Source of the DNA: an uncultured Armatimonadota bacterium
Lineage (GTDB): Bacteria > Armatimonadota > Fimbriimonadia > Fimbriimonadales > Fimbriimonadaceae
Direction of reading: 5' to 3'
DNA length: 64,000 bases
NCBI GenBank assembly: GCA_903927345.1
Contig: CAIYMO010000055.1
Location: forward strand, 1 to 64,000
Of this stretch, positions 2,911 to 16,650 are shown piece after piece (within the stretch, counting starts at the first letter, position 1; the number at the start of each line of letters is the position of its first letter). The position numbers and the translations under genes were made by a program. The notes under the pieces were generated by a model. That model worked only from the letters and a program-made list of their open reading frames with translations. It was not told the DNA's origin and made no database searches.

Positions 2911-3110
2911 TCGTATGATAAAGAGAACCGGATGGCGACGTTCGCCGAGGATGCGACGTTGATCACGTACACCTACGATTCAGACGGCTTCAAGAAAGTC
3001 GAGAACGTAGGCGGAAGCCTCTCGACGATTATCTGGGATGAAACGTACTATCTGCTGGTTCGTGGAGAGAGCGCGATTAAGACGATCCACACCGAGAGTC
3101 TTAGGTGATG
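2761..3110 (+). repeat. Long direct repeat, unit B of Rhs array
   Basis: This block is repeated, with scattered substitutions and small indels, at about 4690-5060, and its second half also at about 240-450. Shared words include AAGTCATCACCTTCGAC, GGTTACCAGTGAAC, CTGTCGTATGATAA and GAGGATGCGACGTTGA. Tandem copies of this length offer homology for recombination that could gain, lose or swap the cassette lying between them. Confidence 0.65.
2809..2864. repeat. Perfect 11-bp inverted repeat (copy B)
   Basis: CACTGGTAACC at 2809-2819 is exactly complementary to GGTTACCAGTG at 2854-2864. The same arms with nearly the same 34-bp interior occur at 4734-4789. There is no T-run, so it is not an ordinary terminator. 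It might be a recombination site, a protein-binding site, or simply a relic of the ancestral coding sequence. Confidence 0.55.
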
Positions 3111-3190
3111 ATTTACATCGCACAAACCGTCTGGTTCGACCTGCTCCCCGATAACCTAGGCTCCATCATGGGCCGACCGGTAATCCTTTA
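2911..3190 (+). pseudogene. Rhs YD-repeat remnant, copy B (frameshifted)
   Basis: Reading from TCG at 2911 gives SYDKENRMATFAEDATLITY, then DSDGFKKVENVGGSLST, matching copies A and C, but the frame ends early at KTIHTESLR-stop near 3107. Beyond this the DNA still matches copy A in another frame up to the AACCTAGGCTCC block (NLGS). No start codon precedes it in a good context. It is therefore a broken piece of Rhs gene. Confidence 0.65.
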
Positions 3191-3242
3191 GAAGTGTGGA
3201 TAAATCATCACAAAATTCGACCGATTTCTGGGATTACTGGCT

Positions 3243-3275
3243 TACAATGATACGAACAAGCCTCGGTGAGATCTA
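3243..3275 (+). promoter_or_regulatory. Conserved leader of Rhs cassette 2
   Basis: TACAAT at 3243-3248 and GGTGAG at 3265-3270 repeat the arrangement found before the first cassette; the last 11 bp before the ATG (GGTGAGATCTA) are identical in both. The distance from the hexamer to ATG is 27 bp here and 22 bp in cassette 1. Confidence 0.5.
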
Positions 3276-4139
3276 ATGGCAATGAAGAAGCGTTTCTATA
3301 CTGTGAATGGTCAGATGATGGGCTATGAGGAAGGTGGTGTGAAGAAAGACTTCCTGACGGATCATCTGGGTTCCATCACCGCTGAGATTGACCAGACTCA
3401 GACGAGAACGTATGATACGCGCTACTCAGCCTATGGACGTAACAACTGGTCTACCGGCACAGGCTGTGGCTTTGGCTGGGTAGGAAGCTACGGCTACCGT
3501 GAAACCGGTCTGTTCCACATGAGCCACTACGTCAGAGCAAGGCACTATTCCTACATTACGGGCAACTGGAGTACGGTCGATCCGCTTTGGCCGGATGAAA
3601 ACGCGTACAGGTACGTGGGTGGACGAGCAACACGAGATCTAGATGCATCAGGAACATCATCTTGCAAAAGGAACTGGGACAGTTGTCCCAAGCCAGCTCT
3701 TGTTTCGAAGATTACGAATGATTGCATTCAAGAGGGTACACGTCCTTGCTACATCAGGGCGGTGCCAGGTTCAACCAAAGAAAACTGCGCGTGTTGTGGT
3801 GTCTGCTTTACTCGGTGTGATGCAATTGTTAAGTTAGGAGGTGTCCTTTGTGGTGGCTTCAATGCATCCGCGATGAAGGATTGCGCATCAAAGTCAATAA
3901 AGAAATTTCTGAACGGCCAAAACCAAATAAATCCGTCTGTGCCACCAAAAGTCGATCCCTCCAAGCATTGTCCGGCTTGCACACCCCCTGGTCGAGAGGG
4001 TAGCCATTACCAGTGGGACTGTAAGCCCAAATCCAAGGGAGTGATTACAGCCAATTGCTGCGCCTGTTACCGAAATGGAGAGGTCAGAATGGTCTGCTTT
4101 ACAGACGAAGGGTGTCATAACAATAAGGTAGCGAGATAG
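3276..4139 (+). CDS. Orphan Rhs core with cysteine-rich tip (candidate toxin)
   Basis: The product has 287 residues. Residues 1-126 are the same Rhs core module as at 606, ending STVDPLWPDENAYRYVGGRA and then DLDASG, the usual boundary before a variable tip. Residues 127-287 form a different tip with 19 cysteines in 161 residues, including ENCACCGVCFTRC and ANCCACYRNGE. I see no HExxH or other catalytic motif. A CCAC motif close to the C-terminus is shared with tip 1, so the two tips may be distant relatives or both rely on disulfides or metal binding outside the cytoplasm. The role as a toxin is inferred only from the Rhs architecture. Confidence 0.7.
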   Translation: MAMKKRFYTVNGQMMGYEEGGVKKDFLTDHLGSITAEIDQTQTRTYDTRYSAYGRNNWSTGTGCGFGWVGSYGYRETGLFHMSHYVRARHYSYITGNWSTVDPLWPDENAYRYVGGRATRDLDASGTSSCKRNWDSCPKPALVSKITNDCIQEGTRPCYIRAVPGSTKENCACCGVCFTRCDAIVKLGGVLCGGFNASAMKDCASKSIKKFLNGQNQINPSVPPKVDPSKHCPACTPPGREGSHYQWDCKPKSKGVITANCCACYRNGEVRMVCFTDEGCHNNKVAR

Positions 4140-13252: not shown

Positions 13253-13513
13253 GTGCGATTTCGGCGTGGCTTCAAAGTGTTCAGGACACCTTCATTGCGT
13301 GGACGAATCTCTGCACGTCTTTCTCCCAAAAGGTTTCTTCGCCACAACTTGGGATTCAAGGCGCCTCGTGGCTGGGGATGGCTAACGAACCCGAAACGGG
13401 CCGCCTACAACCGAGTCTATAACCGAAGTAGCATCGGATGCGTCTGCTTGCCAGCGATGATCTTTGCTCTACTCGGTTGGCTCGTTCTTTACGTCGCTCA
13501 AAGTTCGGCGTAG
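13253..13513 (+). CDS. Small basic protein with C-terminal membrane span
   Basis: The 86-residue product has a basic N-terminus starting MRFRRGFKVFRTPSLRGRIS, vaguely like DUF4236 proteins, then NPKRAAYNRVYNRSSIGC and a membrane span (AMIFALLGWLVLYVA). A GTG start is proposed because TAAAAT stands 6 bp before it, matching the leaderless pattern seen elsewhere in the window. It overlaps the end of the convergent gene at 13498 by 16 bp. Family assignment is tentative and the gene could be spurious. Confidence 0.45.
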   Translation: MRFRRGFKVFRTPSLRGRISARLSPKRFLRHNLGFKAPRGWGWLTNPKRAAYNRVYNRSSIGCVCLPAMIFALLGWLVLYVAQSSA

Positions 13514-14151
13514 ACATCTCTGGCTTTTGCGAGCAACTGACCTTCCGAAGTGTGGCTAACATCAACCTTCTGAGTTTTGACCACTCGAGAGAAAAGCAAC
13601 TCGTTGTGCTGCTTCAGCCAACTCATGAACCGCGCCATTGCGTTGCTTGATCCATCTCCTGAGCCAAAGATGACAACTCGGTCAGCGCTGGCAAGATTTA
13701 CCGCAACTGCGCGGTAGAACTCGTCTTGGTTCGTGTGTTCGGAGTTCTTGAAATAGTCGTGAGCCGAGTGGACATGGTGGCGCAACCCTGTGGGATCGTA
13801 CGGTTCAACTTTCACGGGAATAGCGTCAACTACCTCAGTGCGGTAAATCCGTGCTCCAGCATGGTTCATCACGACAAGTGCGTGGAAATCCTCTGGTTCT
13901 GGAGGACCCTGCTCAACGCTTTCCAAAAGATGCCTGATCTGCATGACTTGCTCAACTGACATGAGGTCGGAATCCGCCGGGGAGTGGAAAACTAGGATTT
14001 TTCCATCAACGGTCACCTTCGCATTCCCGTTGTGTTCTGACTCAACCGTGCCGAGAGAGGACATGAGCGATTTCACATCGCGCCAACCAAGGTTATGAGT
14101 AAGTGGGCGTTGGAACACCGTGGTGTAGATGCGTCGTTCGTGCGTGTTCAT
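13498..14151 (-). CDS. BaeRF-like (bacterial eRF1-related) protein
   Basis: The 217-residue protein (ATG 14151) has HALVVMNHAGARIYR, DRVVIFGSGDGSSNAMARF and a C-terminal VDVSHTSEGQLLAKARDVY. These match the style of bacterial eRF1-like (BaeRF) proteins, which share the eRF1/Pelota L7Ae-like C-terminal domain and have been linked by others to ribosome rescue or stress; the function is not settled. The start codon overlaps the stop of the upstream Cys-rich gene by ATGA, making it the last gene of a three-gene coupled operon. The family call is from motif memory. Confidence 0.6.
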   Translation of the reverse strand: MNTHERRIYTTVFQRPLTHNLGWRDVKSLMSSLGTVESEHNGNAKVTVDGKILVFHSPADSDLMSVEQVMQIRHLLESVEQGPPEPEDFHALVVMNHAGARIYRTEVVDAIPVKVEPYDPTGLRHHVHSAHDYFKNSEHTNQDEFYRAVAVNLASADRVVIFGSGDGSSNAMARFMSWLKQHNELLFSRVVKTQKVDVSHTSEGQLLAKARDVYAEL

Positions 14152-14540
14152 GCTGTTTGGTTCCAGTTTTGGACGGGGCTTTTGCGGCAAGTTTCAAGAT
14201 GTCGACAAAGGTCGAGGCAGAGTTTGGACAATTGGATGATTGCGAACCAAGTTTCTGTCTGCTTGACTACTCTGCTAGACTCAAGCGCACACAACTCGCT
14301 CATCGCAATGGCTTCCTTTGTAGCGGTGTGGTTCCCTGATGCCAAAAGCTCTGCATGAAGCTCATAAGTCTTTGCGCACATGTTCAGGATGCGAACGCTT
14401 CGTGCTAACCCACCAAACTGCTGGCATTCTCGAGCGCAGAATCGACACTCTTTTGCCGCTTCAAGACATGCCTTTCGCACATCCTGAATGAGAGACTCGT
14501 AAGCTTTGCGAGAGTCGCATCGGTAGTGGGAAACAATCAC
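14148..14540 (-). CDS. Cys-rich four-helix protein, copper-storage (Csp/DUF326)-like, second member
   Basis: The 130-residue all-helical protein contains ACLEAAKECRFCARECQQF, a lone Cys in helix two (LNMCAKTY), SELCALE, and LCLDLCRHLETC in the last helix. Cysteines spaced on helix faces in CxxxC/CxxC patterns, with His (HAELL), resemble the four-helix-bundle copper-binding proteins that line a tube with Cys. The cysteine count is lower than in classical Csp proteins. No signal peptide, so it would be cytoplasmic. It overlaps both neighbours by 4 bp. Confidence 0.6.
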   Translation of the reverse strand: MIVSHYRCDSRKAYESLIQDVRKACLEAAKECRFCARECQQFGGLARSVRILNMCAKTYELHAELLASGNHTATKEAIAMSELCALESSRVVKQTETWFAIIQLSKLCLDLCRHLETCRKSPVQNWNQTA

Positions 14541-14878
14541 TTGGTCACCAGTTCTTCCCGAGACATCTCACCGATCAGAGTGATTACGTTGCGGGCAGCG
14601 ACGGCTGATTCCTGAAAGGAGGCAAGATGGCGGAAGGCGGCCTCCGCCTCGGGAATAAACTTCATGCAAGCGACGAGACAGGCATCGGATTCAGAACTGT
14701 CGTTGCGCTTTAAGCGACTCGCATGGCTCGAACAAGCATCGGAGCAGACGCGACCGAGTCTTGCTGCGACCTCCATTCCGCCCATCATTTCTCCCTGGAA
14801 GGCACTCCCGTTACACTCCATTGCACAGGTGTCACAGGCATCGATGCACTTTTCGGATAGGGTTTGGGGGTTTGCCAT
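14537..14878 (-). CDS. Four-helix-bundle copper-binding (Csp/DUF326-like) protein
   Basis: The 113-residue protein shows CIDACDTCAMEC, VCSDACSSHASR and DACLVACMKF, i.e. CxxxCxxCxxxC, CxxxC and CxxxC on successive helices, the pattern of DUF326/Csp-type copper-storage proteins. A Met-rich turn (GEMMGGME) could add ligands. The start at 14878 has a good GGGAGG site 8 bp upstream. No signal peptide. As first gene of the operon with 14148 and 13498, it ties copper (or another thiophilic metal) handling to the BaeRF-like protein. Confidence 0.7.
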   Translation of the reverse strand: MANPQTLSEKCIDACDTCAMECNGSAFQGEMMGGMEVAARLGRVCSDACSSHASRLKRNDSSESDACLVACMKFIPEAEAAFRHLASFQESAVAARNVITLIGEMSREELVTK

Positions 14879-14985
14879 CTCTTGTACCTCCCATGAGCAC
14901 TCGCTCGAGGATTAACACTAGAGTGACAGGCCGAAGGAAGCCTAGCAAGTCAGCAAAAGCTCTGTCGCAGATTCAGTGACAGCGT

Positions 14986-16650
14986 CTAGCGGACGTTGAA
15001 ATACTTTGCTTCGGGATGGTGAACCACGATAGCGCTTGTTGACTGTTCAGGAGTGAGCATAAACTCTTCTGTGAGTCCAATTCCAATGTCCTCTGGTGAG
15101 AGGAGTTCAAATAGCTTCGCCTGATCGTCGAGGTTCGGACAGGCTGGATATCCAAACGAATAGCGAGCGCCGTGGTACTTGGCGCTGAAAAGCAATCGCA
15201 TTTCGTCCGGTTCTTGGTCAGCAATTCTCATTTCAGTGCGAACTTGTCGGTGCCAGTATTCAGCGAGTGCCTCTGCCGTTTCTACACCCATTCCGTGTGT
15301 GAAAAGATAGTCTTGATACTCGCCTTTAGCAAAGAGTTCTCGTTCAAGCTCTGAGATGGCTGCGCCTGCGGTCACGATTTGGAAGCCGACCGTATCAGGC
15401 TGGCTTCCGACGGGCCGGAAGAAGTCTGAGAGGCATAGGCGTCGGCCATCTCGCTGACGCGGGAAGGTGAACCTCAACCGTTCGGTCTTGGCATCATCTT
15501 GGTAGATGATGAGGTCGTTCCCTTCACTGTGGCAAGGGAAGTAACCCCACTTGACCTTGGGCTGCATGACGTTGCCGAGTTCACGGCAGAGACGGTCAAA
15601 TGTTGGGCGAACGTTCGCCTCAAGCCACTCGTTGAACTCAATATTGCCCATCCCATCCTGACGTTTGAACTGCCACTGACCACGGAAGAGAGCGATGGGG
15701 TTGATGTACTTGTAAAGCTCAAAGATATCGAATTTTGTCGCAGCTTTGGCACCGTAGAAAGGAAGTTCGGGGCTCTCGTTAAGAGGCTGAATTTCGGACT
15801 TCGTCCCGTCGAAGGTGTACAGCACGGGATCAAGAGCATCAACCCGGTGAGAGCGAACTCGCTCGGGATAGGACTCGTCTTCGGAAACTTCAACCGGAAC
15901 GCTGGGTCCAATTTCCTCCATCAGTCGCAGACCTTCAAATGCGTCTTGGGCGTAGAACACATTTCCTTGGTAGATCGCCCGAAGGTCCTCTTCGACGTAG
16001 GAACGAGTTAGAGCTGCTCCACCGAGGATCACGGGATACGACGATAGACCCCGATCGTTGAGCTCAATGAGGTTCTCCTTCATGATCAACGTGCTCTTGA
16101 CAAGAAGGCCGCTGAGACCGATTGCTTGACACTTGTGCTGCTGCGCACCTTCAATGATTGCCGAGATAGGTTGCTTAATCCCGATGTTGACGACTCGGTA
16201 ACCGTTGTTCGTCAGAATAATGTCGACCAAGTTCTTGCCAATGTCGTGAACGTCACCAGCAACTGTCGCCAGAAGAATGGAGCCCTTTTCGGACCCCTCT
16301 TCCTTCTCCATGAACTGTTCTAAGTGGCGAACTGCCGCCTTCATCACTTCGGCGCTTTGGAGCACGAATGGGAGCTGCATTTTGCCCGCCCCGAAGAGTT
16401 CGCCTACGGTCTTCATTCCGGCCAGCAGAAGATCGTTGATGATTTGAAGGGGGGTGTAAGTTTCCCTAGCGAGGTCCAACCGGGACTCTAGTCCCTTTTT
16501 AACCCCATCAACGATATGTTTCTGAAGTTGGTCCTCAATCGACAGCCCGTCGAATGAGTTAACCGAAGAATCGGCTAGTTTAACATTCTCGAACCGTTGC
16601 ATGAGCTCGATAAGCGGGTCGTATGTACACGTTCGCTCTGACTCATTCAC
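14986..16650 (-). CDS. metH: Cobalamin-binding and AdoMet-activation part of methionine synthase (truncated MetH)
   Basis: The 554-residue protein matches only the C-terminal half of MetH. Residues about 40-120 form the helical cap of the B12 module (LLLAGMKTVGELFGAGKMQL). Then comes GDVHDIGKNLVDIIL with the cobalt-ligating His, and GLSGLLVKST and ILGGAAL of the cobalamin fold. The C-terminal 300 residues are the AdoMet-dependent reactivation domain (ARYSFGYPACP). The homocysteine-binding and folate-binding modules (some 650 residues in the full enzyme) are absent, and the upstream DNA is too short and divergent to hold them. It must work with partner subunits encoded elsewhere, or have another methyl-transfer role. 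Confidence 0.85.
   Translation of the reverse strand: MNESERTCTYDPLIELMQRFENVKLADSSVNSFDGLSIEDQLQKHIVDGVKKGLESRLDLARETYTPLQIINDLLLAGMKTVGELFGAGKMQLPFVLQSAEVMKAAVRHLEQFMEKEEGSEKGSILLATVAGDVHDIGKNLVDIILTNNGYRVVNIGIKQPISAIIEGAQQHKCQAIGLSGLLVKSTLIMKENLIELNDRGLSSYPVILGGAALTRSYVEEDLRAIYQGNVFYAQDAFEGLRLMEEIGPSVPVEVSEDESYPERVRSHRVDALDPVLYTFDGTKSEIQPLNESPELPFYGAKAATKFDIFELYKYINPIALFRGQWQFKRQDGMGNIEFNEWLEANVRPTFDRLCRELGNVMQPKVKWGYFPCHSEGNDLIIYQDDAKTERLRFTFPRQRDGRRLCLSDFFRPVGSQPDTVGFQIVTAGAAISELERELFAKGEYQDYLFTHGMGVETAEALAEYWHRQVRTEMRIADQEPDEMRLLFSAKYHGARYSFGYPACPNLDDQAKLFELLSPEDIGIGLTEEFMLTPEQSTSAIVVHHPEAKYFNVR

Follow-up and report, generated by a model that had tools for sequence, protein, structure and literature searches.

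A fusion of HicA-like and eRF1-like domains encoded beside two reduced copper-storage-like proteins in an Armatimonadota genome

We found that the last gene of a translationally coupled trio in an uncultured bacterium of the family Fimbriimonadaceae (Armatimonadota) encodes a protein in which a HicA-like domain is fused to an eRF1-like domain (P3), and that the two genes preceding it encode reduced members of the copper-storage-protein (Csp) superfamily (P1 and P2). The window analysed is a stretch of 64,000 nt of contig CAIYMO010000055.1; the coordinates of all features are collected in Table 1. With moderate confidence we read the locus as a lineage-specific set of coupled genes, in which reduced Csps stand next to a HicA-eRF1 fusion that would silence ribosomes non-catalytically, and not as a conserved system connecting copper with translation. 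P3 is a more interesting object than the trio to which it belongs; its architecture is a widespread design that has apparently gone undescribed.

Table 1. Positions of the genes, protein domains and sequence signals in the window.
Feature	Coordinates	Strand	Description
P1	14537..14878	minus	reduced Csp-like protein, predicted four-helix, 113 aa, 8 Cys
P2	14148..14540	minus	second reduced Csp-like protein, 130 aa, 10 Cys, GTG start
P3	13498..14151	minus	fusion of HicA-like and eRF1-middle-like domains, 217 aa, no Cys
P3 residues 1-82	13906..14151	minus	HicA-like (dsRBD-type) domain
P3 residues 86-217	13501..13896	minus	predicted eRF1/Pelota/Balon middle-domain fold, without GGQ motif
Ribosome-binding site of P1, GGGAGG	14887..14892	minus	good; from sequence
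P1-P2 stop/start overlap, 4 bp, GTGA	14537..14540	minus	
P2-P3 start/stop overlap, 4 bp, ATGA	14148..14151	minus	

The earlier note on this DNA had described three genes joined by two ATGA overlaps. All three ORFs are present where it placed them, on the minus strand, and both 4-bp overlaps exist, although only the second one reads ATGA. The trio sits downstream of metH, and P3 has the Csp-like genes and a gene for an FG-GAP/ASPIC protein as its neighbors. Comparison with the congeneric genome G018 yielded nucleotide differences of 28/18/66 by codon position for P1 and 40/16/128 for P3, in both cases mostly at the third position, which shows that these two genes are under coding constraint. 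For P2 no ortholog was identified among the 291 genomes of the phylum, so that its coding status rests on the open frame and on its similarity to Csp proteins. A scan for promoters and terminators at the locus was uninformative.

Residues 1-82 of P3 match phrog_8887, which is annotated 'toxin' (1.7e-7), and also plasmid proteins annotated as HicA toxins, of which two overlap a HicB gene and three exceed the PF07927 cut-off. Alignment of the N-terminal domain of the P3 family with three PF07927-positive HicA proteins by hhalign gave a probability of 98.9 and an E-value of 2e-17, with a score of 90 as compared to ≤17 for column shuffles. PF07927 itself had no match at E≤1, neither for P3 nor for 12 members of the P3 family (set A1), and a connection via ordinary HicA proteins of the phylum, which are short, was not significant; only the long HicA type from plasmids made the link clear. 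The secondary structure elements in the P3 model follow the order H23-33, E35-38, E44-48, E51-55 and H66-80, and helix-strand-strand-strand-helix is the HicA/dsRBD topology (PMC10865869). HicA toxins (PF07927) of the long plasmid type encoded beside HicB, such as those of Deinococcus sp. NW-56 and Legionella antarctica, can be aligned end to end with residues 1-82 of P3. In contrast to them P3 is fused to an eRF1-like domain, has no adjoining HicB at the locus and shows NG in place of their GSR. Classic HicA proteins carry the catalytic His within a GSH motif; at the site aligned to it the P3 family has NGN or NGK, and it is here that the long plasmid HicA proteins have GSR. Regarding novelty, a HicA-eRF1 fusion is missing from the 14 HicA contexts that have been catalogued (PMC10865869), and HicA is unmentioned in a survey of release factors (PMC6514570); as this covers open-access literature only, the absence is weak evidence.

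Homology this clear, to relatives that are HicA toxins accompanied by HicB, raises the question of whether P3 is itself a toxin-type effector, with a HicA-like domain that cleaves or blocks RNA, an eRF1-like domain that delivers it to ribosomes in growth arrest or anti-phage defence, and the Csp-like genes as mere passengers. An anti-phage role has indeed been proposed for HicA domains (PMC10865869). We regard this as unlikely, because HicB is absent beside P3, NG replaces GSH, PADLOC gave no match and P3 homologs have housekeeping stress genes in their vicinity. On a Polymorphobacter plasmid (L115:3908-4270) we noticed an ORF with a P3-type N-terminal domain that is overlapped by 4 bp by the next ORF, possibly a HicA-like pair that goes undetected by PF07927.

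No Pfam model is matched by P3 (E≤1), and when the Pfam baeRF models were compared with the P3 family the best of them was baeRF_family12 with an E-value of 0.15 (Host_attach 0.13). The structural model of the whole protein is of medium confidence (pLDDT 78, pTM 0.52), so that each of its two domains deserves more trust by itself than their arrangement does. Residues ~86-217 of the model resemble Pelota, aRF1 and Balon with Z-scores of 9.6-10.7 and an rmsd of 2.2-4.4 over 95-122 residues; uS11-type and kinase/ATPase chains also match, with Z 7-8. The description of P3 as BaeRF-like, as put forward in the earlier note, thus holds, as far as the predicted fold is concerned, for the last 130 residues, but the HicA-like domain in front of them had been overlooked. 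The loop at the site of the eRF1 GGQ motif reads YDPTGLRHHVHSAHDYFKNSEHT. The glutamine is absent in the window protein and in G018, and many other P3 homologs carry RGQ, NGQ or GGQ in the equivalent loop. Most of the described baeRF families also lack the loop glutamine; Burroughs and Aravind read such families as catalytically inactive and proposed them to be non-catalytic silencers of translation, linked to HPF and hibernation (PMC6514570). Balon, which has no GGQ, is an occupant of the A site, and its genes are found in stress operons (PMC10901736). The C-terminal domain of P3 shares the predicted eRF1/Pelota/Balon middle-domain fold with baeRF proteins and Balon and likewise has no GGQ, whereas the decoding domain and the Pelota-like C-terminal domain are missing from P3, which has the HicA-like domain instead. 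Balon consists of three aeRF1-type domains, including the one that contacts EF-Tu, while P3 has the middle type only; without the decoding and EF-Tu-contact domains, binding of P3 to the A site is not assured.

The cysteines of P1 are located at positions 11, 15, 18, 22, 45, 49, 67 and 71 and those of P2 at positions 8, 25, 32, 35, 39, 55, 84, 108, 112 and 118. All eight of P1 are kept in its G018 ortholog, though the two proteins are just 67-68% identical. Both P1 and P2 stay below every Pfam and NCBIfam cut-off. For DUF326 (PF03860) P1 reaches 12.9 bits against a cut-off of 20.4 (best E 0.11) and P2 has no match; nothing in the window's genome exceeds this cut-off, and DUF326 proteins are present in 11 of the 291 genomes of the phylum. 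A profile built on Csp-type proteins of the phylum, eight in all (L057, which was found with P2, and seven DUF326 loci), retrieves solved Csp structures with E-values down to 5e-21. In comparison with this profile P1 and P2 both score ~60, and their Cys-preserving shuffles remain at ≤28.6 and ≤23.3, respectively. The AF2 model of P1 (pLDDT 92) has Csp and Csp-like structures as its top structural matches (Z 14.4-17.3, next unrelated bundle 12.7), with the reservation that the input alignment included two Csp proteins and may favour the Csp fold. P1 is predicted from this model to be a four-helix bundle of the Csp type, and P2 is placed in the superfamily by its sequence profile alone. In a sequence search of the PDB, P1 and P3 were without matches, and those of P2 were designed helical repeats, which we took to be compositional. 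The HMM search that the earlier note had suggested for the Csp/DUF326 and BaeRF assignments reached no Pfam cut-off, but both survive at the level of distant homology or fold, for the Csp-like proteins that of the superfamily.

P1 and P2 each keep 8 of the 20 core Cys columns of Csp proteins and have lost 12, for which reason we call them reduced; not a single Cys is located on helix 4 of P1. Characterised Csp3s contain 16-19 Cys, and copper enters them at the end of the bundle formed by the α1-α2 and α3-α4 loops (PMC10155185). P1 shares with Csp3 (BsCsp3, MtCsp3, SlCsp3, RkCsp3; DUF326, PF03860) the predicted four-helix bundle (Z ~15-17), homologous Cys positions on helices 1-3 and Met residues at the copper-uptake end, where Met31, Met32 and Met35 are located in the model. 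The cysteines of P1 lie ~14-32 Å from this end (model helix limits). Unlike the core of Csp3, which is filled with ~16-19 Cys on all four helices, P1 and P2 have 8-10 Cys, and P1 also differs in falling under the DUF326 cut-off. With eight core Cys per protein, P1 and P2 may have a metal other than copper as their ligand or bind no metal at all, and the pair offers a natural test of the minimum number of Cys required for Cu(I) binding by a Csp bundle. A complementary loss of Cys between the two is not claimed, as the three shared columns are close to the chance value of 8x8/20 = 3.2.

A plainer account of the locus would make P3 a general RNA-binding or housekeeping protein with an RNase H-like fold and no action on ribosomes, and P1 and P2 decaying Csp copies devoid of metal function. 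The uS11-type and kinase/ATPase chains sharing the fold are in line with it, as are the missing ortholog of P2 and the 12 core columns lost from each of the two proteins. We nevertheless hold it to be improbable, since the eRF1/Pelota/Balon chains lead with Z ~10 over ~120 residues, and P1 has retained its full set of Cys in G018 at such low protein identity.

P3 is encoded in 14 of the 85 genomes of the family. A pattern search with P3 alone yielded no match, and the search with the P3 alignment yielded 20 loci. Outside the family we identified 17 loci (one of them partial), mostly in Opitutae and other Verrucomicrobiota; P3 was also found in a MAG labelled as a cyanobacterium and in a Phycisphaerales MAG, on a Nostoc plasmid and, split over two ORFs, on a Granulicella plasmid. 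No match to P1 or P2 was found on plasmids. One Opitutaceae MAG carries tandem P3-like genes (L055:2429-2818 and 2971-3642), the first ORF being short.

The picture for the trio is a different one. The other matches of P2 in the phylum, in G002 and G067, are ordinary Csp-type proteins, and P1 was found next to P3 only in the window genome and in G018, which represent two congeneric species. In G018 metH is followed by P1 and, after ~125 bp, by P3, with P2 absent; for a candidate P2 remnant in this gap the best alignment was within the range of shuffles. The genes downstream of metH differ among the other congeners, which makes the trio a recent local arrangement. At ~30 other P3 loci from several phyla no Csp gene was detected beside P3 (Csp model; flanks of 1.5-3 kb), P3 is in turn absent from the Csp loci of the phylum, and searches with the proteins of the trio gave no match in phages or PADLOC. 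After searching P1, P2 and P3 in the relatives, the family and the phylum we rejected the trio as a conserved system; its gene order was not found beyond the window genome, and an order unique to this genome is what the earlier note itself had named as grounds for giving up the idea. Its suggestion of a link between thiophilic metal stress and translation found no support. An Opitutae MAG encodes a heavy-metal/copper-type P-type ATPase (L038:455-2881) that is followed after ~80 bp, on the same strand, by a P3 homolog. When P3 loci elsewhere were checked for a connection with copper this case stood alone, the Granulicella ATPase being closest to proton pumps, and no pattern emerged. That the trio is a true metal-stress and translation module, with Csp-like proteins that sense or buffer a thiophilic metal while P3 protects or silences ribosomes, is very unlikely: the two overlaps, the constrained neighbors P1 and P3 in G018 and the ATPase upstream of the L038 homolog speak for it, but G018 lacks P2 and has P1 and P3 125 bp apart, and elsewhere P3 and Csp genes occur separately.

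In the surroundings of P3 homologs we noted genes for BON, Dps/ferritin, Usp, Hsp70 and DnaJ proteins, in a chosen sample and not as a count against background; the stress-gene surroundings of Balon genes are much like those of the sampled P3 loci. HPF/RaiA (PF02482) is found in 219 of the 291 genomes of the phylum and in 0 of the 20 genomes of the genus, including the window genome (G000). Among the 85 genomes of the family all 14 with P3 are without HPF and all 51 with HPF are without P3 (Fisher p 4e-7, relatedness not corrected for). Outside the genus HPF is present in 0 of 3 P3 carriers versus 51 of 62 other genomes (p 0.008), with two of the three carriers being incomplete genomes. The absence of HPF was scored in related genomes with one profile (E≤1e-4); we treat the mutual exclusion of P3 and HPF as a lead, not as proof.

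In the explanation that we prefer, the trio would be a lineage-specific, translationally coupled set of genes 3' of metH. P1 and P2, as putative four-helix bundles, would probably bind Cu(I) or other thiophilic ions in small number via their clustered Cys. The HicA-like domain of P3, with its dsRBD-type topology and without GSH, probably serves in RNA binding, and P3 is most likely a non-catalytic stress factor that would bind and silence the ribosome, by analogy to the glutamine-less baeRFs, for which such a role has been proposed, and to Balon, for which it has been demonstrated. The P3 gene would have been joined to the Csp-like genes in the window's lineage, which makes expression under the same stress plausible. 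A bolder version, to which we give little credence, is that P3 founds a widespread ribosome-silencing class, composed of a HicA-derived RNA-binding domain and a glutamine-less eRF1-like domain, that replaces HPF/RaiA where HPF is undetectable and has been wired to a thiophilic-metal buffer in one lineage. Should P3 bind ribosomes, it would represent a new domain architecture among the eRF1-like hibernation and rescue factors, with a toxin fold recruited next to a release-factor fold, and ribosome silencing in bacteria without HPF would become testable.

The metH gene next to the trio (14986-16650) codes for a MetH-like protein with the B12-binding and activation domains only. This short form is conserved genus-wide, and the homocysteine and folate domains of MetH are presumably located elsewhere.
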